A DNA stretch of 64,000 nt. It comes from Phaeodactylum tricornutum CCAP 1055/1. Taxonomy: Eukaryota; Bacillariophyta; Bacillariophyceae; Surirellales; Neidiaceae. The notes beneath the pieces are model-generated. The model was given only the letters and a program-made list of their open reading frames with translations. It searched no databases and was not told where the DNA came from. Positions within the stretch are counted from its first letter, which is position 1, and each line of letters begins with the position of its first letter. Positions 6,417 to 64,000 of this stretch are shown one piece after another. A program made the position numbers and the translations under genes. The stretch lies in the NCBI RefSeq assembly GCF_000150955.2, contig NC_011684.1, positions 248,001 to 312,000 on the forward strand, in the 5' to 3' direction.

Positions 6417-7544
6417 CTTGTTGACGAGCACAAGGGCGTTCTAAGTAAGAAACGAATCAAAACTTGTCGAATGCAATCCGAAGTTGGATTGCGTTGGCGG
6501 ATACGAGCTTTCGTAGTGAACGTTTCCGTCTGCAATCAATGAGAAAGAGACCAGGTAACCAGAGACACCCTGGATTGCGGGCTTGCTTGGACGTTCCGAG
6601 TGCGCGACACGTACTATCGTGGTAGTTGTGCTTCGGGAAGAGATACGCTGCGCGATAGGAGATGAACCGACTGTCAATTACAAACGGAGTGGATTTTGCT
6701 CGATCGCCTGACTGCCAATGTCTTGCACAACTATAAAGTGGTGGATCCTGTTGTTTTTGACGACTCGATCGAGTGTGGTGGGGGTGGTGGGAGAAAGTGG
6801 CACGGGCAACGAGGAAAAGGAGGCGAGAGAAGGAAGGTTTCTCTAGACGCAACCTGGCATCAAGGAACGCGGGATGCGTGCCGTGAGAGGGAAGGGGGTC
6901 GAAAACGAACGTGATCCAATCGGCGGAGATCGGAAATAGAGAGGTTCGTTCGGCTTCCGGCTGGCGGGATGTGTCGACCTGTGGTGTCACGGCAAGGCGG
7001 TAGGTACTCTACACACTTCACAGTGAAGATTTGTACTACCATCCTACTTACTCACAGGAATAGGAGAATTAATATATTGTCAAGTAGGGTAAGACTACAT
7101 CCGGGTTCGACAAATGCAACGGCGCTAACGTAAATCTATCTGTCCTTCGACCGGCCCCACCGTGTGGAGGGATGGGAACACCATTTGGTGACGACTCGGC
7201 ATCCGGAATCATGCATAATACGAATGGACGCTTCGCGGATCTTTTGCGATTGCTCGAAATCCCTCTCCCCCCCCCCGGTATATATATCGTACTGTTTTTG
7301 GTACGACGGCATCAAGACACGCAAACTGCCGTCGGAACCAGTGGCCTCCAAAGGAAGAAAACGTATCAAGGGAAGAACGCAATTGTGTTCAACAGTCATG
7401 TAATTTACAGTTACTTCACTTTCGGGAGCATTCCACATTTGTATATCATTCCTTTCTGCTCTTGTCGTTGCACTATCATAGTCTTCCTCTTCTCTAGCAA
7501 GCGATTGGTGAGCGAGTCTCAATAGTTCCAAGAAGAAGATCAAA
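6417..7544. other. Divergent intergenic region between NadA and isocitrate dehydrogenase genes
   Basis: 1.1 kb holding both promoters. A 177-codon minus-strand open stretch (6457-6990) has no protein-like features and is not called. There is a short palindromic sequence (cttcacagtgaag) near 7015 and a C-run near 7265. No RNA gene or repeat recognised. Confidence 0.45.
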
Positions 7545-9284
7545 ATGTCCTCCTTGTCAACACTCCGAATCTTGCACTCGACGGCTGGTCGCCGTTGGGC
7601 GTCTTACTACGGTATCTACCCCAAGAGCGCTGCATGCAGCAGTAGCAGTGTCGCTATCGCTCGTTTCTTTTCGACTGCTGCTGACCGTCCCCCCAAGCAC
7701 GCCATGCTCAGTGTCGAGAATAAAGTCGTGGCCCCGCCCATGGTGTACATTGCCGGCGAAGAAATGACCCGCTACGCCTGCGATCTCGTCGTCAAATCAT
7801 GGCTAGAGCCGTACTTTGATCTTTCCCAATGGGAATATTTCGATCTTTCTTGCGTCAATCGCGACAACACCAACGACCAAGTCCTCCGGGACGCCGTCAC
7901 GGCGGGACAACGCATCGGGGCCATCTTCAAGGAACCCACCATTACTCCCAGTGCTATTCAAAAGAAAGCCTTTGGGTTGAAAAACAGTTTGGGCAGTCCC
8001 AATGGTGCCATGCGGGCGGGTTGGAATGGCATTACCATTTCGCGTGATACCATTCATATTGACGGCATTGAACTGGGTTACAAGCGACCCGTCTTTTTTG
8101 AACGACACGCCGTCGGAGGGGAATATGGAGCCGGATGGAGCAAGGTCGGGCGAGGCACGCTGTTGACGACCTATTTGCCGTCGGATGGGAGGGATCCCTT
8201 TGTCGTTGACAAACGTGATTTGACCGATCAGCATAATGTGGTCGTCACCTACCACAATCCCTACGATAACGTTGAACCCCTCGCGCACTTGTTCTTTCAG
8301 CGATGTCTCGACGCCAACATTACACCCTACGTGGTGACCAAAAAGACCGTCTTTAAATGGCAGGAAGGATTCTGGGCAGTCATGAAAGACGTTTTCGATG
8401 AGCATTACAAGTCTCGATTTGAGGAGAAGGGCCTTTTGCAAGCCTGTGGCGGAGATTTGCAGCATTTGATTTCCGATGCTGCAACGATGCAGCTCATTCG
8501 TTGGACCGACGGCGGCTTCGGTATGGCGGCTCATAACTATGACGGTGATATGCGTACGTGATGACCCAACATAGGGACAGGACGTTTCAAATGACGCTTA
8601 ATCGCTTTCCTGACTACCGTCTCACCTTGTTTGCTTTGCATTGCAGTGACGGATCAGATTGCCCAAGTCCACCGGTCGCCAGGTTTCATCACAAGCAACC
8701 TGGTCGGCAAGGCCCCTGACGGAAGCCTCATCAAAGAGTTCGAAGCCTCCCACGGTACCGTCAGTGATTTGTGGAACGATCATTTGGCCGGTAAAGAAAC
8801 GTCTCTGAACCCTCTCGGTCTTGTGGAAGCTATAGTTGGTGCACTCCAACACGCAGCCGTCCTTGATGCGGAAAAAAATCCCGACGACGAACACAAGGTC
8901 AAGGCTCGGGATCAAATTTTCAATTTTACCACAACCTTGCGCACTGCGATGCACAACACCTTTCGCTACGGACAGGGCACGAGAGATATGAGCGGGCCTT
9001 CGGGATACACAACGGAAGATTTCGTGCGTAAGGTTGCCTGGCGTTTACAACGATACCTCGACGCGCAGTACGACGAGGCCCCGCCACCTCAACTCGGTGA
9101 ACCTTCTCGTAAATTGCGGCGTAATTACGACATTGATGAAGAAGCCATCAATGGCCTTTTTCAAAAGTATGACAAGAATGGTGACGGTTTTATTGACTTT
9201 GAAGAATTCACTAGAATGCTGGTCAAGATGAATTTGGCGCCGCTTCTGACCAAGAAAGAAAAGGAGAAGAAGCCGGACGTGTGA
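7545..9284 (+). CDS. Mitochondrial isocitrate dehydrogenase fused to a C-terminal EF-hand
   Basis: 548 residues in two exons, 7545-8553 and 8647-9284; the 93-nt intron has GTACGT...TTGCAG ends and restores 'NYDGDMLTDQIAQ', the family's conserved block. An Arg/Ser-rich presequence ending near 'ARFFSTAAD' suggests mitochondrial import. Catalytic-domain landmarks are 'NRDNTNDQV', 'SPNGAMRAG', 'ERHAVGGEY' and 'EASHGTV'. After HGTV the human NADP enzymes have Arg-His; here it is 'SDLW', so NAD may be preferred (inference). The last ~45 residues contain a canonical EF-hand loop, 'DKNGDGFIDFEE', implying calcium binding. I recall a characterised diatom NAD-dependent IDH of this kind, but cannot confirm it is this gene. 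It supplies 2-oxoglutarate in the TCA cycle. Confidence 0.92.
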
Positions 9285-51630: not shown

Positions 51631-54600
51631 CTAGCCGATTGGCTGCGTAGCAGACGTCGACTCGACAGCTGGCTTTTTTGATAAGAACGATGTCAAAATC
51701 TTGGATGAAGCAGGCGGTTCTTTTCGCTTTTTAGATGGGCTTTTCGAGACCTTTTCGAACAAAGGTTCGCGAGGCTTCACGGCTCTTGGCTCGTTGTCAA
51801 CGGCTACCGACAAAGTAGCTTTCTTTGTAGAAGATACGGCAGTTAATTGTACCCCAGTCTTTCGCTTCTTACCTGACGTTGATGTCGCCTTGATCGATGG
51901 GGTGTCCTGTAAAGCCTTCCTCTCTTTTTCAGTGGGCATAGTTAACGCAGTCGCTAGTGCTTCTGTACCAGGCAGGATTGGCGGGTTCGACGACAAGTCT
52001 GCCAAGCCCAACTCCGACTTGGCCGGCTCCTTCACTTGCCAGTAAGCCCCACTGACAGGATGTTTCCGTTTCTCCGCAACAGACTCGAGAATGCGCATGG
52101 CTTCCGCGCGGCTCGATGCAATCGACTCGTGAGCTATCAAGAGCTCGTCGACTACACGTTCTTTTGAATTGAGTGTACTATTGTGTACAAATTTCGCAAT
52201 AGTGCGTAGTACATCTTGTGAATCATTTTCAACAGACTTGAGATCCTCTAGTCCAAGCTTATCGAGTACTTCACCTTTTACCTCCCAATAGATGCCCTTT
52301 ACAGGGTGCTTCTTTTTGTCGGCCATGGACTCGAGCACTCGCAATGCATGAGCACGGCTGCTAGTGACGCTTTCATGCGCCTTTCGAAGCTCGTCGACGA
52401 CCTTGTCTTTCGATGCAAGGGTGCAATTGTGGACAAACTTGGCAACGGTCTTGAAATCGTCCTCGGACATTTCCTGACTTCCCGGTGCCTTGTTACTAGC
52501 TTCGGCAGGAGAAGCATCGGAGAAGCTTTCGTCGATCAACTCGGGGGGAAACGCGTCCAAAAATAAATCGCAATCATATAGAACCAATGCCTTATGAGAT
52601 GCTAAAATACGAGAGGCCTGCCGAACATCCAAGCCCTGAACGCATTTAGCAGCGCAGGAGACATGGGCGTCAACGATAGGTTTGCCATCTCTCGGCGCGA
52701 TGACATGTACGATTTGTTCCTTCTGTTTCGGACTATCGGCAGCAGCCAAGGCTTTTATACGAAGCCTTCTCGTTTCATCGTCTAATTCGTCATCGATTTC
52801 ATCGTCGGCAGCCAACCAGCCGTCTTCGTCGTCTCCTGCGGCTTCTTCTTCCTCTTTGTCTTCTTCATCATCGTCTCCCTCGCCGTTCTCCAAATCTTCT
52901 CCGATTTCGTCGTCACCTTCTTCCCATTCCGCCTCACTATCGTAGTCGTATTCCAATAGAGTGGTCTCTTTCCGAAACGGTGTCTTTCCCGTCACAATGG
53001 AACCTCTTTTACTCCACGTGCCGAAATAGGGTGGCCGAACGTCTTCGTGAAACCGGAGGAATTTATATTTGTTTGGAACGGTTATCGTTTGCTGCTCTGC
53101 AAAGGGCTGGGCCCCGAAGGCTCCATTTTCCGGCACTACAGTCACAAAAACCTCCATATTTACCATTTTTGTCCGGCGGTGTCGACTTGCTTTCCAATAG
53201 CGTCCATGTCTGCTACACGCTTGAGACTTGGAAGGAACGACCCCTCGTTCCAAAGCAGCACGAAAGGCGACGACATCGAAATGACTTTTCGTTGGCTTGA
53301 GAGGAGAAGTGGGAGCAGAGCCCAGTGTCGGCTCCATCTCGCAGTCTACCGCTTCCATCGCTTCGACAAAGGATGTCAAATGCTCATGCGTTGCCTCTTC
53401 CGAAGCTTTCTTCGTTGCAGATAAGAAACTCATCAAGCAGGATTTTTGCTTGCGCAATTTGGCTTGTTTCGCTTCCGTAGCCTCACGTGCGGCATCTTCC
53501 TTTTCCTGAAGCTTGCGATCGGCTTCGTCCTTTTTACGCTGCTTTTCCGCCTCGGCTTCGTCTTTTTTCCGTTGTTTTTCCGCGGCAGCTTGTTCTTTGA
53601 TTCGCTGTTTAGCGGCGGCCGCTTCGGCTTGTTGCGTAGCCTTGGCGACGGACGCCTCCCGTAGCTTTTTCCGCTGGGCCTGTTCCGCGAGTTTGGCCGC
53701 TTCTTCGTCCCGGGCGTACTTGAGCAAGCGTGTTTGCTCGAGCACGAGACGAGTGGTGAGCCTTTCAAATTTTTTGGTCGAGGCTGGTTGGGGTGGCGCT
53801 GGCTCCCGCAACCACCAGGCGTCCATTTCGGTCAAGACTTGGAGGACTTTGGCACAGCTTTGAAACTCGGCCGCGAGCTTGCGACGCGCGGAACGCGCTT
53901 TGAGGACGAGCTTGCGCGAGACGGGTTCCAGCAACTCCGGAACGGTCAATTCCCATCGCCATACGTGATCCGGCCGATCGTCTTCCAGTGCACGGACGGG
54001 TGGCGGCGACGGTGCCGCTACCGAATCCCCGTCGCCGGTGACCGAGGCCGCGGACGGGTGTTTTACGTATTGTTTACGGTTGGCCACGAGCGGGATCTTG
54101 GCCGTGACGAGAGTGTGGGTAAATACCTTGGTGTTGTAGATTCCATTGAGCTCGTTCGCAACGTATGCCGCCAGCGCTGCCAGCGGCAAAGCACTGCCTT
54201 CCACGAGTGCCGCTAGGCATTCTACGGCTGGTTCCGGAAAGTCACTCGATTCCGTGGCTAAAATCTCATCTTTCGACAACGGGGATATTTTGGGCAAGGC
54301 CACGGTAAAGTCTTCTTCCGCAATAGTTCGGCAGCGTTGCAACACAGATTGGGCGCGGGCCTGAGCCTGAAGGCGGAGTGAGTCGTATTGCGCCGACGGA
54401 CGCGTCTGTGTTTCGTTGGTGGAATGGACCGTACGGTGGTCGGAAGAGGCCTCTGTGTCTACTTTGGCACGAGGAGGACTCGAGGTATCGAGACGGGCGG
54501 AACCGTGGCCTGGTTGCACCATCGCGGCATCGTGTACTGACCGTAAGCTCTGGGTGGTACCCGTGGGCACGATCGTCTTGGTACAACTCTTGTTTGTTCC

Positions 54601-55404
54601 CACGGTATCAATTGTAAGATCCACGACGGCTGGTTCGTGCGTGTCGGTCGTCAGCGTCTTCCCCCTGGAGCCCCGATCCGTCGTTGATTTTGTGGAGGCC
54701 TCCTCGGGTGGAATCGTCGGCGCGTCTTTTGTTGCGGAAGCGACCGTTGGTGGTGGTGGCGTCGTCGGATCCCGCCGATCGTTCGGTGTGTTGTGATCGA
54801 AGCAAGGGAGGAGATTCACACGGCCGAGGCAAATGTCCATGAGGGCCGCCTGCTGGGGTCCGAGTCCGGCACGGGTCCCGACGGAGGATGGCACGACGGG
54901 ACGAGCGGCGGGAGTGGTAGCCTGGGACTGGGACCGCGCACTGCGGGTATTGGCCTTGTTTGTCGTCGTCGTCGTCGTCACGGGGACGGCGGTGCGGGGC
55001 AGGGACGTCGGAGTCGTGGAATCCGTGCGGAGCGTCGTACGGCTCCCACACGCCTTCCGCGGGTTCGTCGGGCGGACGGACGATGGTGATCGTTTCCCAA
55101 CCGCAAAGAATCCGGCGAGTGTCTTTTGCTGTTGTCGAGGCAACGCACTACGGGATGGCTTGGTATCTGTTGGAGTTATTTTGCGGGTTTCCGGAACGCT
55201 CCCGCACGGCGTCGCGTCGTCCGCCGCAGCGTTCGACGAGGGCGACGCATTCGCAGCGGAAGTGACGGTGACCACGGAAGCCTTCGATGTTGCAACTGAC
55301 TTTTGTAGACGTTTGCCTAGTCCGGTGGTGTCGTCCTGGTGTGTTTGGTCATTGTCATCCTCGACGATGTCCAAAGGAACTTCGATGGAGGCAAGGGAAG
55401 GCAT
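51631..55404 (-). CDS. CHAF1A: Chromatin assembly factor 1 large subunit (CAF-1 p150-like)
   Basis: 1257 residues from the ATG at 55404. CAF-1 deposits new H3-H4 behind replication forks, recruited by PCNA. Near residue 95 is a PCNA-binding box 'QKTLAGFF'. Residues ~560-660 are the KER domain, a highly charged helix with repeated 'KQRKKDEAEAEKQRKK'-like units, followed by 'QKSCLMSFLSATKK'. The acidic ED domain (~805-890) starts 'RPPYFGTWSKRGSIVTGK' and 'LLEYDYDSEAEWEEG', the family hallmark. The C-terminus has two consecutive copies (~985-1125) of a winged-helix-like unit, 'VAKFVHNCTLASKDKVVDEL' and 'IAKFVHNSTLNSKERVVDEL', where one is usual. A second PCNA-like box 'SKILTSFLSKK' is near the end. 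Confidence 0.93.
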   Translation of the reverse strand: MPSLASIEVPLDIVEDDNDQTHQDDTTGLGKRLQKSVATSKASVVTVTSAANASPSSNAAADDATPCGSVPETRKITPTDTKPSRSALPRQQQKTLAGFFAVGKRSPSSVRPTNPRKACGSRTTLRTDSTTPTSLPRTAVPVTTTTTTNKANTRSARSQSQATTPAARPVVPSSVGTRAGLGPQQAALMDICLGRVNLLPCFDHNTPNDRRDPTTPPPPTVASATKDAPTIPPEEASTKSTTDRGSRGKTLTTDTHEPAVVDLTIDTVGTNKSCTKTIVPTGTTQSLRSVHDAAMVQPGHGSARLDTSSPPRAKVDTEASSDHRTVHSTNETQTRPSAQYDSLRLQAQARAQSVLQRCRTIAEEDFTVALPKISPLSKDEILATESSDFPEPAVECLAALVEGSALPLAALAAYVANELNGIYNTKVFTHTLVTAKIPLVANRKQYVKHPSAASVTGDGDSVAAPSPPPVRALEDDRPDHVWRWELTVPELLEPVSRKLVLKARSARRKLAAEFQSCAKVLQVLTEMDAWWLREPAPPQPASTKKFERLTTRLVLEQTRLLKYARDEEAAKLAEQAQRKKLREASVAKATQQAEAAAAKQRIKEQAAAEKQRKKDEAEAEKQRKKDEADRKLQEKEDAAREATEAKQAKLRKQKSCLMSFLSATKKASEEATHEHLTSFVEAMEAVDCEMEPTLGSAPTSPLKPTKSHFDVVAFRAALERGVVPSKSQACSRHGRYWKASRHRRTKMVNMEVFVTVVPENGAFGAQPFAEQQTITVPNKYKFLRFHEDVRPPYFGTWSKRGSIVTGKTPFRKETTLLEYDYDSEAEWEEGDDEIGEDLENGEGDDDEEDKEEEEAAGDDEDGWLAADDEIDDELDDETRRLRIKALAAADSPKQKEQIVHVIAPRDGKPIVDAHVSCAAKCVQGLDVRQASRILASHKALVLYDCDLFLDAFPPELIDESFSDASPAEASNKAPGSQEMSEDDFKTVAKFVHNCTLASKDKVVDELRKAHESVTSSRAHALRVLESMADKKKHPVKGIYWEVKGEVLDKLGLEDLKSVENDSQDVLRTIAKFVHNSTLNSKERVVDELLIAHESIASSRAEAMRILESVAEKRKHPVSGAYWQVKEPAKSELGLADLSSNPPILPGTEALATALTMPTEKERKALQDTPSIKATSTSGKKRKTGVQLTAVSSTKKATLSVAVDNEPRAVKPREPLFEKVSKSPSKKRKEPPASSKILTSFLSKKPAVESTSATQPIG

Positions 55405-56745
55405 GTTGTTCACCAACGATCGCGCGCGACTCTGGGGAAGGGTGAACGAAACTGGAGCCGATACGGCGTCGCACTGTCTCGTTGTTTTTTCGTGAGTGCT
55501 TGTCTACACAGCGTTTCGGAACCGATGCGTGTGGGGATACTTGGTAGAAGAGTGCAATAGTGGTTGTCGAAACCACCGGGTGCAGTCGTCGTAGCAGTGG
55601 GTAGGTAACGAACCTGTCCGAGGAAGGAATAGGTACACACCAAAGACGCGAAGAGTCGGATCCGCATAGGCGACCCACACCGTGGGTGCCGTGTACGAGA
55701 GTGTTGCAGGAGAGGGAACGCATCGGATCCGTCCGTCCGCATTGCGAGCGTACGGAACAGGGATGGGTCGGCGCGCATTCGAACCGTCCGCGCCGCGACC
55801 TCCTCCCGTTCTTGATTTCGACTTCCGGGTTTTCCGCCTAGTCGTGGAGGGACTAGTTCTTCGGACTGGCCATAAGTTCCGGAAGACGTCCCCGTCTCCC
55901 AGTGGCACATTTCCGAACACAACGACATACGGAGTATTTTGAGTCATGCTCCATAAACGTGTTCCGAAACACATATTACCCGACTATTGACTCTGTCAAT
56001 ATGAGGAGTCGATGGAAAATTCACAAACATCAATTCGTCACGGGACGGGAAACCGATGTTTAACATAGCGTGTCAAGGTTCGATAAACGAAAAGAAGCTA
56101 GTCTATTCCTTTATCTATATGAGTTGTGAGCCAGTGACCAGCTTCGTTCCAAATCTTGTTCTCCTAACCATCCACAAAAAGACATCAGAAACGCCGAGTG
56201 ATGTCAGTGCAATCTTTCCACATTTAGGAAGTAGAGAGCCATATGTAGTTTCAGCGGAAGAAGTCACTGGTAATCTTTATAGTCTCTGATTCGTGAATGT
56301 CAGTCATAAAGTTCACGATGTGACACGTCGTTACATCTTCAACATGGGTTGTCTATAAGAACTTTTTCTCACTTGGGTCGTGCCCGACATGACCATTGTC
56401 CATTCTGCGTCGAACTATAGTACCATTCCAATACGATCCGTGCTCCGCCTCCTATCGGGAGCAGGACACCGCCTTCCGTACGATTCTCACGATTGGGGAC
56501 GCGACCACCAAAAGGACCTCGTGAGAAACGTGAAAAGTGCTTGGATTTAGAAGTTTCCCTTGCCTTCGCAACGCCGCGAACACGGGTGGCCGGGTAGGTA
56601 ATCTTACCGATCGACCGGTATTTTTCTGTTTTTTTTTAAACGCTCACAAACATTTTCTTGCAATCTTTTGTTGGTTCGATACCATCACAACAGAAGAAGC
56701 AACAACAAAAACAGCGGAAAGCCCCACGAGAGTCTGCGTTTCGAC
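55405..56745. other. Divergent intergenic region
   Basis: 1.3 kb between CAF-1 (minus) and an unknown plus-strand gene. Several overlapping open frames near 55500-55950 lack protein-like composition. No repeats or RNA genes recognised. Confidence 0.4.
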
Positions 56746-57885
56746 ATGTCGTATACGCAAGCCCCTCCTCCGCACGGCGATGACCTCCTTCGCTCAACAA
56801 GTACCCTCGCGCTCAACAACGTCGGAGTCGCACTCCTAGAGCGATCCTGCTTCCGTCAAGCTATGGGCACTTTCCGGGACGCCCTGGCGAACCTCCAAGA
56901 CATTAACAGAAGTTTTGCTAAGTTGCGCCTCCAACACGCGACGCACCGCTTGGCCTCTCCCCAAATCGATCTGCCCCGCGAAAGTGCCAACCCACATTCC
57001 GACAAACTTCATGCATTCCGTATCGAAACGCTTTCGGACACGGATTCCGTACCAAGCCTGTTGGCCCGCATGACGCAAACATTGGTACCGACGACTGCGC
57101 CGCTAGAGCCTTCGCCTTCGTCGTGCGATATCCAGAAAGCATATTCGACCAACTTAGTTCCCCGCACCTTGATCCTATGCCCAATCCGCATGGAACAGAT
57201 AAATGTAGGAGAAGGTACTAAGCTTGCCGTCCTGCTCTACAACTTTGCGGTGGCGCATCTGTGCTTGGCAGAGACGATCACGACGACCATAGTCAGTGAT
57301 GACGACGATGAGGAGGAAGGCGACGAAGATACCAACTACCACGAACAGCAAGATATGGACTGTCTCACTTCAGAACAAGATTTTCTGTACGATAACGCCT
57401 TGCAGATCTTAAATCACATCAAGGACATGCTATATTCGTGGATTGCCAACGAAAGGCGCGCCGATTTTAACATGCCACACGCGTCGGGGGCAACATCCGT
57501 GCAACATGTCACGTCGGGAGCCGGCGAAAGCCGATGGTACGGAAATTGTCTCCCGTACCTCTACGCGGCTCCACCGGAAGTTGCCTACTTGCTCGCCGTT
57601 GGCTGCGACCCTGGTCGCTTGTTGCGGCAGTTGTTGCAAATATTGGTATGGGACTACACTGGTCACGTGTTCGCGGCCAACGAATTGCACGGTGACGCCG
57701 ATGCCGCGTTTGAACAGACCTGGTATTTGAGGGAAACGGCGGCTCAGTTGCAAATGTCTTTTTATCAAAACAGCAGCCTCGCGATGACGATGACTCGAAG
57801 GGGATGGCGTTTCCCTAATCGCGAAATCAACACTTTTCAGGATCCAATCAGCGTCATCGCAACCGGGACCGCTGATGCAGCATAG
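56746..57885 (+). CDS. Unknown protein with a TPR-like N-terminal repeat
   Basis: 379 residues from the ATG at 56746. 'ALNNVGVALLERSCFRQAM' with 'GTFRDALANLQ' looks like one TPR-type helical hairpin. A second helical block contains 'KLAVLLYNFAVAHLCLAE', consistent with further TPR units after a long Ser/Pro insert. An acidic run (~185-200, DDDDEEEGDED) follows. The C-terminal third is helical with 'YLLAVGCDPGRLLRQLLQI' cut by polar loops. I recall diatom-specific families with this layout but no function. No targeting signal. Confidence 0.7.
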   Translation: MSYTQAPPPHGDDLLRSTSTLALNNVGVALLERSCFRQAMGTFRDALANLQDINRSFAKLRLQHATHRLASPQIDLPRESANPHSDKLHAFRIETLSDTDSVPSLLARMTQTLVPTTAPLEPSPSSCDIQKAYSTNLVPRTLILCPIRMEQINVGEGTKLAVLLYNFAVAHLCLAETITTTIVSDDDDEEEGDEDTNYHEQQDMDCLTSEQDFLYDNALQILNHIKDMLYSWIANERRADFNMPHASGATSVQHVTSGAGESRWYGNCLPYLYAAPPEVAYLLAVGCDPGRLLRQLLQILVWDYTGHVFAANELHGDADAAFEQTWYLRETAAQLQMSFYQNSSLAMTMTRRGWRFPNREINTFQDPISVIATGTADAA

Positions 57886-59560
57886 GACTTGTGTGGGTTG
57901 TCACGAGATCAGCCTTACATTAATGCTGGTCGAAATTCTGACCGTGACGTTTGCCAAAGTCTTGTGGAATGATGAAGACTTAAAATACGTTGATGCAGGA
58001 CCAGAATCATTAATAATAAATCGGATTCTGTCCTGGTAAATATTTTTATATCTGAAAACTGATGACGTCGTATCATAGAAAATCCGATGATTCAAAAGTA
58101 GCTACGAATTTGGACAACACGAACATTAACAAGTGTTTTTGTTGAACCCAGCGCATGGGATCTTGTGATGTACATGTCTGAGAGCGTTATACATAGGGCC
58201 GGTTCCAATGAAAACGGGGGGAATGTCAGCGGAGGACAGGCGTTGACCAATCAAGACGATCCCACTACAATGTTGGTCAGTGATAATACAAATGATATTT
58301 GACTGTGAAAAGGATCAATCCTCCATTATCCTACGCGTGAGGGCTTCTTTCCGGATCCGCACTGTCTTTGCAAATCCGCTTACGATCATCAGTTACTATG
58401 AAGGTGCGGGTTTGGTACATTCTTTGCGCCTCTAGAAACTAGGAGCGATTTGATATCGGTCAACACGCGGTCCGCCTGGACTCTACAACATATTCATGTC
58501 TTGATACAATTCCAAACAAATGTTGCATGTTTTGTGATTCTGTTACGGTTGTGAGGAGTCTTGGCAGGGTTGCCTTGGAAGAATCCAGTTGGACACTGTT
58601 TGCCTTGACGAGTCTTCTCGACCTGGTCAACGGCGCCTTGACGACTGCAATGCCACCTAGGAACCTGTAATCATTTTGAAAACGGTATATTCTTCGTTTA
58701 TGAGCAAGGAAATCTATCTCCAGGAATCGAGGGAGCTTAGGCCAGGACACTTAAGTCTATACAGAGGCATCAAGAAACGCACTTTACATGTAGGGATCAA
58801 TTTCAAATGAGATTATTTCAGGCTGCTTTCTTTTGACAGAGAATCCATTCAAAGTATGCAACATGAATTTTACTACTACATAGTATGTAATGCGATCCTC
58901 TGATTGACTGTGAAAAGTCTATGGCTGCTGTTTACGTTTCAGAGGCAAGAAAGCAAGTAGATTGTATGCGTCTTTCATTCTACTTTGCAGTGTGCAACGT
59001 CATTGAGACGTTTGATGTGCCACCACGGATATAGAGCTGGCTTGTCTACTCGTCGTGATGACTGTAAGACATAGCAGTCTTCCCAGCTTGGGGCTCTCAA
59101 TACAGTTGAAGAGGGTCGGCTATACCATTTTTCGGCCAAAGGACAACTGAACCCATCTACTTTCATTATTAATTATTTGACAAACTGACAGTAAGCAATA
59201 CGTAGTCCAGCTAGAAAGCGGTCCCTGGTATCGTAGAAAAAAAAATCTCTATTTAAAGTAGGTGCACGCACGTGTCTGTCTATTCAACCTACCACAACTT
59301 CATGACGACGCTTTGGGTGAGGACAAATTAGCTCGTTTTCCTTCTATCAGCACACTCGACCCGCTTTTCATGATTTGGGGAAATCGAACTATCCCCGACA
59401 ACCTTCAAGCTTACTTCGGAATCTCCTTTCGGCACTCCAGACTCTGATTTTGTCAGAACCTGTCTTGCAATGTTTTGTATGCCGATTTGCCGTTCATTCC
59501 ATCAACAGCATATATTCAGGCTTGAACCACTCCACTTTTACGGTCTGAAGTAAAGCGAGC
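57886..59560. other. Intergenic region upstream of the Dicer-like gene
   Basis: 1.7 kb, the longest stretch without a called gene. Two TTGACTGTGA copies (58299-58308 and 58904-58913), both on the plus strand. Minus-strand frames at 58460-58750 and 58975-59166 are short and not convincing. No helicase-like sequence precedes the Dicer-like gene; an in-frame TGA sits 15 bp before its ATG. Confidence 0.45.
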
Positions 59561-62500
59561 ATGCTTGGAAGAACGCGACAATACTCCGCTTTTGCGTCAA
59601 GCACAGACTGTCATATAGATGGAGCAAGTTCTTTTTTTTGGTTGGGACAATTCGAGACCCTTTGCGCTTTTGATAGCTGGACGTCGTCGCAAAATGCCCC
59701 CCGGCGAAAAGACTGGCATGAATTCGAGGAACTCGAAAAGTTACCCTCCCGTAAAACAACAACCCAGGATATAGCATCGACGAATCCAGTTCAAGCCATG
59801 CTACAGCTGTACCAGGAGCTTGGTATTTCCAGCCTAAACAGCTGTATGTCGTTTATGTCGCAGCTTCACAAGGGGCAAATACGCTGGACGTGTAAGTTTC
59901 AGTGCCCAATTTCGGGTCGAGTTCACTCGGCCTGCGACGTTTTAAACGATGACAATGTAGGTTGGTCGACCAAAAAGGCAGCACAGAAGGCTTGCGCTGT
60001 AAATGTTCTTAACACCAGCTTTCATGGCGATAAATTGCAATACGGTCAATTTGATGGTCGCAGAGCAAAGACGTTAAAAACGTCGAGGGGAGTTTTAGAC
60101 GTTTCTATTCCTTGTGGACCATCAGCACATTTCAGCTTCCCGAAAGACCACTGGAAAACAGCTCGGCTCGTTCCACAACGGCGGTGTTCACTGTTTGAAC
60201 TCATCATTATGACAAATGACGCCCAGCCACTCTCCCTGCTGACTCAACGAGTTGGTCTTTTGTACCCAGAGTGTCTGTCTTTTATTTCCGTAAATGAAGT
60301 CTTTGAGACTCATTTCGGGACACCACGAGAAAAGCAATTATACAAAGCTCGACTCATTCGGGCAACGCCTTGTACTCTAGTGGACGCAAAAGAAGTCGCG
60401 TGGCTACAAATCTTCAATCGGATTGTTACAGATTGGAAAAATTATGGTTTAGGACGGGACGCCGTGCGGTGGCTCCTTCCTGAGCGGTACTTGCGATGCC
60501 AAGATTTCGCCGGACATGCAACAAGTATGCTAGTACCCTTGAGTCCTGTTGGTGATCCAGCGATTGACTGGATTATGGTCAAAGATGAACTGGAGAACAA
60601 TGTTCAATGTTGCCTTCTAAAAGGATCAGATCATCCAATTGAAGTGGTGTCGACCGACATCTTGCGCAATCGCATTTTGATGCAAGGTCGGACGAGATAC
60701 TTATATCGCGTGTCTACAAACAAAAGAGTTTCTTTACAATCAGATTTTAACAGCAAAAGGAATAATCCTGGTTCTTGCAATCTTCAGAATGAACTACAGG
60801 GATGCAGAGCTGACCTGGGGAAGAAAATGTTTGAGGACAACTATTGGGAGGAATGCGGTACGCTCCTCATATCGTTTCAATTACCTTGCCACTTATTGCG
60901 AATGCCAGCCTCACAACAAGCCAATATTTTGTGCCGTGTTTATTTATGTTAGATACAAGTTTCCAGTCTCCTTACAAAGTACCGATCCCTACTGTTAGAG
61001 TGGATCGATTGGCCAGATGCAGTCCGTTTTGTGACAAAATCAATGACAGTGAGGTTTCGGTTATGTTAGAACCTGAATCTACCTTCCTTTTGCCAACCCC
61101 CCTGGGCTTTCTCCATGTGGCGTCGTTAATGGAAGATTTTATGGCGGATTTAGAGAGAAAGATGTACATCTTTCAATGTGCATCACATCTGGAACAAGCG
61201 TGTGAAGCACAAGCTTTAAAATCAAATACGACGCTCGATGGACACCCTCCTTCTGTACGACCGAACTGGAAGCACAGACAAAGCAATCTGGCTAGACTCC
61301 TACTCGAAGCTACGACCGTTCATCCCCAACCTTTTTATGAGAGGTTAGAGTTCCTTGGTGATGCCGTCTTAGGCTTTTGTCTGGCACTGAATGCGATGAC
61401 TCGAAATGCCTCTCTAGAATATGATTGGGAAGAGCTTGGCCTTGTTATCTCGAACGCGGGCAAAAACAAGGCTCTCGCAGCCATTTGCCATCGAGCTGAT
61501 CTAGAGGCCCTCGTTACGTACCCAAACTATCGTTGGAAGAGTGCTTATCGCCCTGGACAGTCTATAAAGGCGAATGTCTCACTCGAGAGCCAGAAGACAA
61601 GCGACACATCTCGTTTCGCGCCCCATGAGATCGTGGAAAGTGTAATCGCTTCAGTATATTTGTCGGATATGGCAGAACTCTCTGCAATAAAGGGAAGTCG
61701 TCTTGTAACGCTCATGAATTTGCTGCAACCACCAATGAATTACAAAGGCAACACTTGCTTTACAAGGCAAGATAATGAGTGGTTTACTCTTGCTGAACCC
61801 TGTATTAAGGCGCGCTACGATTTTTCAAACAATCTTGAGTGGAGCAGAATAATCGACAAAATCGGTCAATTGATAGATACGGATGCTCCACGAGCAACGC
61901 GGCTCCAGGTGGGGTACCAAAACTACCTTGACTGCCTTGCGCCGTCTTCATCTGCGAAGGATTTGGAGAGCGAAATACCAAAGATCCTTCTCCAATGTGC
62001 TCTTTTCGACGACTCTCTAGCGGATGAAGCGGAGAACGTCCATTCCGGCGCCGTTGAAATAGCCCTCGTACGTGACACGCTAGGCCAGCTCGGTGGATAC
62101 AGCCTACAACTCGCAATTTCGGAAGACGCCTTCCGCAGATTTCCCGAAGCGGAACCTCGAGATTTGCATCTTGTACGGGCTTGCGTAAGTAAATGAGGTG
62201 GTCTACTTTACAAGCGTGTCGTCGTATGTCTGAATACGCTCATTTGTGTTCTAGGCCATCGCAGACGATGTTGTCGTCTACATTATGTTGAAAGCTGGTT
62301 TAGACGGAGCCTTGTATGAGCAACCGCCCCCGTTCTCACATGTTTTTGAGTCCATGATGAGGGAATCAGATGAACGAGGAAGGCGACTCTGGCAGCAGAG
62401 TAAGGGATGGCTGTTAGAGTGTGGACTGCGTGGTTTTCGGTCACGCCATCGAGCATTTGCCTGGGAGGGTTTTGCTCACAAAGACAAAATAGAACCGCAG

Positions 62501-62734
62501 TATCCTGGAATTGCTGGTGGGCGACTTGCGGGCCATCGGAAAAAGGTACCATCTTATTTAACGGAGGACTTGGCGTTCTCCTTCAAATGCACTATCGGTG
62601 CACTAGTCCTTTCGCTGGGCCTTGATGAAATGTGGAATTTGATTGGTCCGTTATTTCACGAAGTATTACTGCTGTCTCCTCAGGAATTGCGACGTGAGTT
62701 CCAACTATCTTCTACGATAGTTCAGAGCGCCTGA
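59561..62734 (+). CDS. Dicer-like protein: dsRBD, PAZ-like region, active RNase IIIa, degenerate RNase IIIb; no helicase
   Basis: 1002 residues in three exons, 59561-60857, 60953-62184 and 62255-62734, with 95-nt (GTACGC...GTTAG) and 70-nt (GTAAGT...TTCTAG) introns. Residues ~76-145 resemble a dsRNA-binding domain ('NPVQAMLQLYQELG', 'KKAAQKACAVNVL'). A region at ~200-420 ('RTRYLYRVSTNKR') sits where PAZ is expected but is too divergent to confirm. RNase IIIa (~540-690) has 'ERLEFLGDAVLGF' and 'HEIVESVIAS': the acids are present (one Asp is Glu). RNase IIIb (~790-965) keeps the fold ('LQLAISEDAFRRFPEAEP') but reads 'DTLGQLGGYSL' and 'AFSFKCTIGA', losing the catalytic acids. There is no helicase, as in Giardia Dicer. 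It should process dsRNA into small RNAs, if at all with one working site. Confidence 0.85.
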
Positions 62735-62946
62735 GGTGAGATGCTTTTCTGCGCTTCTCAGGAGTTGCAGAATAAAGGCAATATTTGAGATTAACAAAAT
62801 CTTTGAAGAATAAAATCGTGCTTGAGAATCACGCGACGTTCCGAATTCGTCTACAGAGTCTACCCAAACGTTGGGACGATAGTAAAAGCTTACCGTATGG
62901 ATCGTAACAACCTTGATATCAAACAGCCCCTACATGGAACAACATA

Positions 62947-64000
62947 TCAGTCGGCGTATTCGCTGCTTGAATCGTCGTTCTCCTCGCCATCGAAACTCAA
63001 GTCAAACGGAGAATCCATGTCAAAAGGGACCGATTCTTGCCGGGTCAAGTGGGCAAGCTGTTTCCAGTCGCTTCGAACAATACAACTGGCCAGAACTACA
63101 GCTGCAGAAATGTATCCAACGGAAATTGAAGCTGCGACTGCCTGCAAGTCGAATTCAAAAGCAAATATGCAAAGAAAAGCCAGAGGCATTGCACATAGCC
63201 ATCGACACGCAAGAACGGTCGACGAGGCTAGAATGAAACGACCTTGAGAGCCGACAAGGCTCCAGTATACTTGGGCAAATGCCATGGTAAGATTTGCAAA
63301 CCCTGTCATACCAACAAGACTACTGAAAAGATGCTGTAAGGTTGGGTCTGTTGTGAGGGCAACCGTAATGTTTGGCCCTACCATGAGAAAAACAGAAGTG
63401 CAAACAACTGCTTCAACAAGTGTCCAAAAAATAACCTTGCTGGCTAGAGTCTGAGCTTGGAAGGGGATATTTTCGGCCAAATAATACGATACTCGAACAG
63501 CTGCTGCTTCCCCTATTCCTTCGGACGTTGCTTCGAAAATTTCCCATACTATTCCCATTAGCGCCCACGTCGCAACTTCAGCACCACCGAGTCGGCGAAC
63601 AAAGAACGTTAGGAGCTCCCACTGAAAGATACGAAATGTTCTTAGCACGGTGTCTTAATGGACATGTACGTTGCAAGATATCATCCTGTTCTTACCTCGC
63701 GGAGCTCCACTAAAGAACCAATCAAGAGAGGGATTGTAAAAGAGACGAAGCAAACAACAGATTCCTTGTCCTGCAAAATAATAGAAGATAATGTTAGGCT
63801 ATTTCGCTAGCTCAGAAACCGCATGGCCACGTTGCCAGGTGACGAGACTGACCGTTAGCGAAAGCGAACTGAGTAGCCCGCCCCGGAACGGCTGCACCCA
63901 TCCTTTTACGACAACGTATAAAACCTTAGCTAGGACTTGGGCGATTCCAAAGATAACTTGAATCCATCCCACCGTCACCAGACTTGGTTCCGCGGTCGTT
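62947..64000 (-). CDS. MATE-family efflux transporter, C-terminal part (cut by window edge)
   Basis: Three exons on the minus strand: 64000-63853 (open at the edge), 63770-63696 and 63621-62947. The introns are 82 nt (GTCAGT...TTGCAG) and 74 nt (GTAAGA...TTTCAG), both phase 0. Joined, they read hydrophobic segments with 'FTIPLLIGSLVELRE' and 'WELLTFFVRRLGGAEVATW', then 'TSEGIGEAAAVRVSYYLAE', typical of MATE transporters (alternating-access export of drugs, organic cations or citrate coupled to H+ or Na+). About six membrane helices follow, and an acidic Ser-rich tail of ~35 residues ends at 62947. The substrate is unknown. It converges on the Dicer-like gene, with ~210 bp between stops. Confidence 0.85.

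Follow-up and report, generated by a model that had tools for sequence, protein, structure and literature searches.

A Dicer-like protein of Phaeodactylum tricornutum whose second RNase III domain has lost all four catalytic acids

A Dicer-like protein of the diatom Phaeodactylum tricornutum contains two RNase III domains, the second of which, RNase IIIb, has lost all four of its catalytic acids. The gene lies on the forward strand at 59561-62734 of the 64,000-nucleotide stretch analysed here (the window; G000:C16:248001-312000), within which all positions are given unless another contig interval is named. Its three exons encode a product of 1002 amino acids, with the ATG at 59561 and the stop codon ending at 62734. 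The catalytic positions of RNase IIIb are occupied by Gly810, Gly814, Phe951 and Lys954. RNase IIIa retains E565, D569 and E661, and its fourth metal-site acid is E658 rather than an aspartate. In canonical Dicers the two strands of a duplex are cut by two different active sites. On balance we favour the view that in the diatom protein RNase IIIa would be the sole working blade and RNase IIIb a structural pseudo-partner, so that a duplex would be cut by two molecules or in two binding events.

Both the gene and the deviation in its RNase IIIb domain were in print before this analysis. Bollmann et al. 2016 (PMC4791657) reported 'variations in both motifs' of RNase IIIb for P. tricornutum DCR1 and T. 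pseudonana DCR, together with a variation in the second motif of the P. tricornutum RNase IIIa domain. The latter agrees with the glutamate we observe, and we have taken the two proteins to be the same. Section 17 and the discussion of that paper draw no mechanism from the diatom case, and in the passages on the Phaeodactylum Dicer that we consulted we found no statement on what a single active site, following from its RNase IIIb catalytic residues, would entail. A 2011 review (PMC3145265) describes the key residues as conserved in two diatom proteins, in support of a dicer role; the loss of the RNase IIIb acids corrects that statement.

RNase IIIb extends from 61987 to 62665 (amino acids 778-980, forward strand, split by intron 2) and was located with a profile built from 80 bacterial RNase III sequences; these top a set of 567 loci retrieved with a T. 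maritima bait and are not a broad sample. The profile pairs erLEFLGDAVLel with DTLGQLGGYSLQL and LadalEAligAvYldqgle with LAFSFKCTIGALVLSLGLD, in the expected order. The total score was 12.7 bits, reached by none of 2000 shuffled sequences; 1051 of the shuffles received any score, the best being 6.7 bits. In this register DTLGQLGGYSL (62074-62106, amino acids 807-817) stands at the place of ERLEFLGDAVL, and LAFSFKCTIGA (62570-62602, amino acids 949-959) has Phe and Lys for the Asp and Glu of the second motif. Three of these columns are essential in the bacterial enzymes, the second Glu and the Asp of ExxExxxD being present in 80 of 80 and the Glu of DxxE in 79, with one gap; RNase IIIb has Gly, Gly and Lys there. 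The initial annotation of this stretch had described a Dicer-like protein whose RNase IIIb domain lacks the catalytic acids, and the profile register (G, G, F, K) confirms this. It had further read DTLGQLGGYSL as devoid of the ExxExxxD acids, which is correct for the two essential positions, both Gly, and not for the less strict first Glu, where D807 remains as the one acid left. That column contains Glu in 73 of the bacterial sequences and Gln in seven. Around the first motif residues typical of the RNase III fold persist in the profile and in phmmer, which aligned this stretch with the T. maritima RNase III 1o0w (E = 0.03), in keeping with the fold signals noted earlier, within a domain that is divergent overall.

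It might be argued that RNase IIIb is active through other metal ligands and that the protein is an ordinary two-cut Dicer. Further acids are present, with D807 next to the first motif, E947 and D948 immediately ahead of the second and E875-E883 in an insert, and the products are reported to be double-stranded (PMC11910954). However, all four pocket positions are replaced, by Gly, Gly, Phe and Lys, the lysine would be expected to repel metal, and of the four corresponding columns in the bacterial enzymes three show little or no variation. We therefore regard an active RNase IIIb as very unlikely.

The acids could also be missing from the gene model rather than from the protein, either because the true exon joins regain them or through an error in the assembly. 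The gene is covered by three stop-to-stop frames, 59549-60952, 60835-62196 and 62255-62734. Exon 1 (59561-60857, in the first of these frames) provides the start codon, an N-terminal region that includes a faintly dsRNA-binding-like stretch and, at the usual place of the Dicer platform and PAZ, a long unassigned region. Exon 2 (60953-62184) encodes RNase IIIa together with the first half of RNase IIIb. Exon 3 (62255-62734) supplies the second half of RNase IIIb and the stop codon, and no C-terminal double-stranded RNA-binding domain (dsRBD) was found in it. Intron 1 (60858-60952) is one of 18 frame-keeping GT-AG joins (40-200 nucleotides, donors from 60700 on) and its choice is uncertain, which leaves some room for an artefact, as does an enumeration that covers GT-AG introns within set ranges. 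All 18 joins end by 61000, upstream of the RNase III motifs, and our conclusions rest on exons 2 and 3, so that they are independent of this choice. Intron 2 (62185-62254, 70 nucleotides, GTAAGT...TTCTAG) is clear, and the four frame-keeping GT-AG joins available to it (35-150 nucleotides) all leave both degenerate motifs unaltered.

In the three forward frames of 61700-62900 neither ExxExxxD nor LGD occurs, nor does any [D/E/N]xxE with Ala, Ser or Cys as the next residue. Of the acid patterns tried only E...GD has a match, at 62508, and stops enclose it within 22 codons; a bare DxxE is present at 62023, 62483 and 62716, in no case in register with the second motif of RNase IIIb. A search for an exon join that restores the acids, a possibility that the initial annotation had raised, ended in rejection of that candidate: no enumerated join or forward-frame pattern supplies them, and as far as the DNA can tell they are absent. 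The same variation has moreover been printed for both P. tricornutum and T. pseudonana (PMC4791657), and an artefact of the gene model or the assembly is scarcely credible. Codon use was scored in all six frames, and the stated frame came out best in each part of the gene, with 0.048 in exon 1, 0.110 over RNase IIIa, 0.171 over the first half of RNase IIIb and 0.069 in exon 3. As a yardstick, 17 training open reading frames (ORFs) scored on themselves gave 0.095-0.223, beside which the exon 1 value is low. Both halves of RNase IIIb lie in frames with coding-like codon use, which we count in favour of the pseudo-partner reading.

RNase IIIa (61339-61668, forward strand) was recognised in the 1002-residue product by Pfam PF00636 with 42.9 bits (E = 8.7e-11), the best stretch being amino acids 562-671. 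Its first metal motif, ERLEFLGDAVL (61339-61371, amino acids 562-572), has kept its acids, and its second, HEIVESV (61624-61644, amino acids 657-663), has Glu for Asp at the first position and retains the second Glu. The metal-binding acids previously ascribed to this domain are thus in place at E565, D569 and E661, whereas the first acid of DxxE is Glu658 and not Asp. Three exact acids and a conservative fourth count for RNase IIIa as the working blade, and judged by its motifs we expect the domain to be active.

A darker reading has both domains dead or nearly so, the protein serving as a scaffold of the small-RNA pathway while another nuclease does the cutting. The substitution at Glu658 lends this some weight, the first DxxE column of the 80 bacterial enzymes holding Asp in 57, Asn in 11, other residues in 12 and Glu in none, and the second motif of RNase IIIa matches the bacterial profile weakly, at -0.8 bits. 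Yet the three other acids of RNase IIIa are kept, and the position in question varies among relatives, being other than Asp in 23 of the 80 bacterial sequences and part of an NxxE in four Drosha RNase IIIa domains (PMC4791657). Dicer is also reported to process duplex small RNAs in this species (PMC11910954), and we consider the loss of both activities quite unlikely.

RNase III domains work in pairs (PMC7528652), and an internal pair of IIIa with a dead IIIb would have a single site. In the mechanism that we propose, RNase IIIb would retain enough of its fold to pair with RNase IIIa of the same chain and, without catalytic metal binding, would leave one active site per Dicer molecule. Each binding event would then cut one strand. 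A duplex small RNA would result from two opposite-strand cuts that two molecules make with their RNase IIIa sites or, by an alternative route, from one molecule binding twice in opposite directions. We infer each of these steps, from the pairing of the two domains and the activity of RNase IIIa to the single site and the cutting by two molecules. That an active and an inactive RNase III domain can work together as a one-strand cutter is indicated by the trypanosome editing endonucleases (PMC9508840). In P. tricornutum, microRNA-like duplexes have been described with 2-nucleotide 3' overhangs at one strand only (PMC4247016), which is what asymmetric cutting might leave; the authors of that study also offer a Dicer-independent origin for them.

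Whole-genome searches were run in six frames over 27,450,724 bases in 88 contigs. PF14622 matched the Dicer gene only, and PF00636 matched two loci, the Dicer gene (RNase IIIa, 36.5 bits) and C13:843058-843432. The latter, on the reverse strand, consists of two reading-frame pieces with YIGDVVYEL and ALEALLGYLY. We take this motif pattern to be Mini-III-like, with an N-terminus that presumably resembles a diatom plastid-targeting leader, and NCBIfam gave no name for either piece. No further Dicer-like RNase III was detected in the genome. With duplex products reported and no other such enzyme detected, both cuts are probably made by RNase IIIa sites. The same searches returned one Piwi match, one RdRP frame with two matches and one dsRBD match. 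Searches of the genome for Dicer_dimer and PAZ gave no match, and as the controls were equally silent this is not evidence of absence. The exon 2 protein found no relative in collections of viral contigs and genome contigs, which include no eukaryotic genome collection, and neither phage tblastn nor plasmid megablast returned one. Rfam gave no match in the window that reached the gathering score.

The main rival to an internal pair is a IIIa:IIIa homodimer, in which two Dicers join through their RNase IIIa domains, in the manner of budding-yeast Dcr1, and RNase IIIb has taken on a different role, for instance in binding RNA or contacting proteins. The yeast homodimer cuts both strands, with product length set between neighbouring dimers (PMC7528652), and an arrangement of this kind would explain double-stranded products with a single type of active site. 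The strong divergence of RNase IIIb as a whole points the same way. Against this, the surroundings of the first motif in RNase IIIb match the RNase III profile, suggesting that the fold has been kept, and the Dcr1 architecture of one RNase III domain and two dsRBDs is not seen in the diatom Dicer. We hold the homodimer to be unlikely, though to be taken seriously, since sequence cannot decide between it and the internal pair; the mechanistic consequence is testable. The initial annotation had suggested that the enzyme nicks one strand, acts as a homodimer or has another role. Nicking of one strand and nothing more sits uneasily with the 26-31-nucleotide duplexes that a review ascribes to this Dicer (PMC11910954). 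A homodimer, or two one-site molecules, is the better of those options, and the earlier interpretation is partly supported overall.

Several observations weigh against RNase IIIa as sole blade with RNase IIIb as its folded partner. RNase IIIb is by its sequence divergent throughout and not at the acids alone. Pfam PF00636 applied to RNase IIIb by itself stayed below the cut-off (14.8 against 27 bits), and a three-Dicer profile built from DCL1, DCL3 and an animal Dicer missed the domain, with 1.9 bits equalled by 11 of 2000 shuffles. The match to the second motif is weak when taken alone, at -2.1 bits in the full protein and 1.0 in the RNase IIIb piece, and we find it credible because its place and order fit. 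AlphaFold2, run on the single sequence of a 336-residue exon 2 piece, gave a mean pLDDT (predicted local distance difference test) of 33.4 and so lends no support to IIIa:IIIb pairing. The glutamate at the first DxxE position of RNase IIIa, found in none of the 80 bacterial enzymes, makes the activity of that domain less than certain. A very divergent second RNase III would have escaped the six-frame search, because RNase IIIb itself was missed by it. The 'variations in both motifs' of T. pseudonana (PMC4791657) need not equal a loss of four acids, and the reported sizes of P. tricornutum small RNAs differ, from 22 nucleotides (cited in PMC4791657) through 24-25 nucleotides as the most abundant (PMC4247016) to 26-31 nucleotides (PMC11910954).

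Grypioti et al. 2024 are said to have combined Dicer knockouts with small-RNA sequencing. Their approach is described as 'reverse genetics' in PMC11910954, which cites them for the processing of 26-31-nucleotide double-stranded small RNAs by the P. tricornutum Dicer, adds that these RNAs derive mostly from transposons under repressive marks and regards diatom gene silencing as seemingly off the canonical path. RNAs of 26-31 nucleotides are also cited in PMC12203969. For conservation in other diatoms our basis is PMC4791657 alone, where the RNase IIIb domains of P. tricornutum and T. pseudonana cluster tightly and the RNase IIIa domains do not; the shared variation and the tight clustering suggest that the variation is old and has been kept. 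Variations are also recorded there for the Dicers of T. adhaerens, Naegleria and Albugo. A wider proposal, which we put forward tentatively and with more doubt than confidence, is that diatoms have used a one-site Dicer with a retained pseudo-enzyme RNase IIIb since at least the split of pennate and centric forms, that two molecules would cooperate on one double-stranded RNA, and that the IIIa-IIIa spacing, rather than a PAZ ruler, would set the length of 26-31 nucleotides. If a major algal group cuts with one site, the ruler and the strand logic it follows must be different ones, and this could account for the reported long duplexes and for overhangs on one side only. A one-site Dicer would also bear on RNA silencing as a tool in diatoms.

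Outside the RNase III domains the protein offers little that can be recognised. At E values up to 10 Pfam reported the two RNase III models alone in the 1002-residue product, with no helicase, PAZ or dsRBD above the cut-offs. The absence of a helicase had been noticed before and holds; in the nearest long ORF upstream (56602-57885) Pfam likewise finds nothing at E up to 0.1. Helicase-free Dicers of protists, that of Giardia among them, are named in PMC3145265, so that a helicase is not required for a Dicer in the wide sense. A dsRBD is stated for the P. tricornutum Dicer in PMC4247016. We found a faint dsRBD-like stretch, GWSTKKAAQKACAVNVLN (59960-60013, forward strand, amino acids 134-151), which reached 13 bits (E = 0.16) against Pfam dsrm, below the cut-off of 23, and only when a 53-residue piece was scanned alone; Pfam found no dsRBD C-terminal of RNase IIIb. 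A long dsRBD protein is encoded on the same contig (C16:615982-616173, reverse strand; 952 amino acids seen, Pfam dsrm 38.4 bits), and this is a possible partner for a Dicer without a clear dsRBD of its own. By eye LLPTPLGFLHVASLMEDFMADLERKMYIFQCASHLEQ resembled a Dicer connector helix, which we do not claim, phmmer giving no PDB match for the region and Pfam none. A four-row Dicer profile put its connector segment in the right place at -3.0 bits, which is no evidence, and its total of 11.2 bits (none of 2000 shuffles) is owed to the ERLEFLGDAVL motif.

A MATE-family transporter gene (62947-63654, reverse strand; PF01554, 34.1 bits) converges tail to tail on the Dicer gene, at a distance of about 210 bases. 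Some 4 kb from the Dicer gene, at 51631-55503 on the reverse strand, is chromatin assembly factor 1 subunit A (CAF1A_dimeriz, 88.9 bits); it and Dicer would both bear on chromatin, and their proximity is probably due to chance. At 7512-9284 on the forward strand an isocitrate/isopropylmalate-dehydrogenase-like ORF (Iso_dh 21.3 bits, under the cut-off) is followed by an ORF in which an EF-hand-like stretch, DKNGDGFIDFEEF, can be seen by eye, and the two are perhaps a single calcium-sensing dehydrogenase.

How does this protein compare with known systems? It shares with Arabidopsis DCL1, animal Dicer and Giardia Dicer the two RNase III domains per chain and a long region upstream of RNase IIIa, and with Dicers in general a role in small-RNA production, which is reported second-hand for the diatom protein (PMC11910954). 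The tandem of RNase III domains that defines a Dicer is present, RNase IIIa being identified by Pfam and RNase IIIb by the 80-sequence profile. The acids expected of a Dicer are found in RNase IIIa, with E658 for Asp, and not in RNase IIIb (G, G, F, K), whereas in the PDB entries for DCL1, DCL3 and an animal Dicer both domains have all four, with E and D in the first motif and D and E in the second. The diatom protein differs further in lacking a helicase and, by Pfam, a detectable PAZ or C-terminal dsRBD. Among the PDB chains, 9kby_A (DCL4) carries N and Q in place of the DxxE acids in each of its RNase III domains; these were presumably engineered for trapping, which makes the chain unfit as evidence for natural loss of the acids.

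A counterpart is the Dicer-like protein of T. pseudonana, which likewise has two RNase III domains with an RNase IIIb varying in both motifs, while its RNase IIIa groups apart, among those of excavates and oomycetes (PMC4791657). A PAZ is reported for it in PMC3155517, and only two RNase III domains in PMC4156623. In trypanosomes the endonucleases KREN1-3 and the non-catalytic KREPB8/7/6 form pairs of a catalytic and a non-catalytic RNase III that are thought to cut a single strand (PMC9508840). They are separate proteins with zinc fingers, part of an editing complex and directed at mRNA/guide-RNA hybrids, whereas the diatom Dicer is one chain, in whose 1002 residues Pfam found no zinc finger. 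Budding-yeast Dcr1 resembles it in having one kind of active RNase III site, so that both cuts need two copies (PMC7528652). The yeast enzyme achieves this with one RNase III domain, two dsRBDs and no pseudo-domain, in contrast to the diatom Dicer, which has kept a degenerate second domain.

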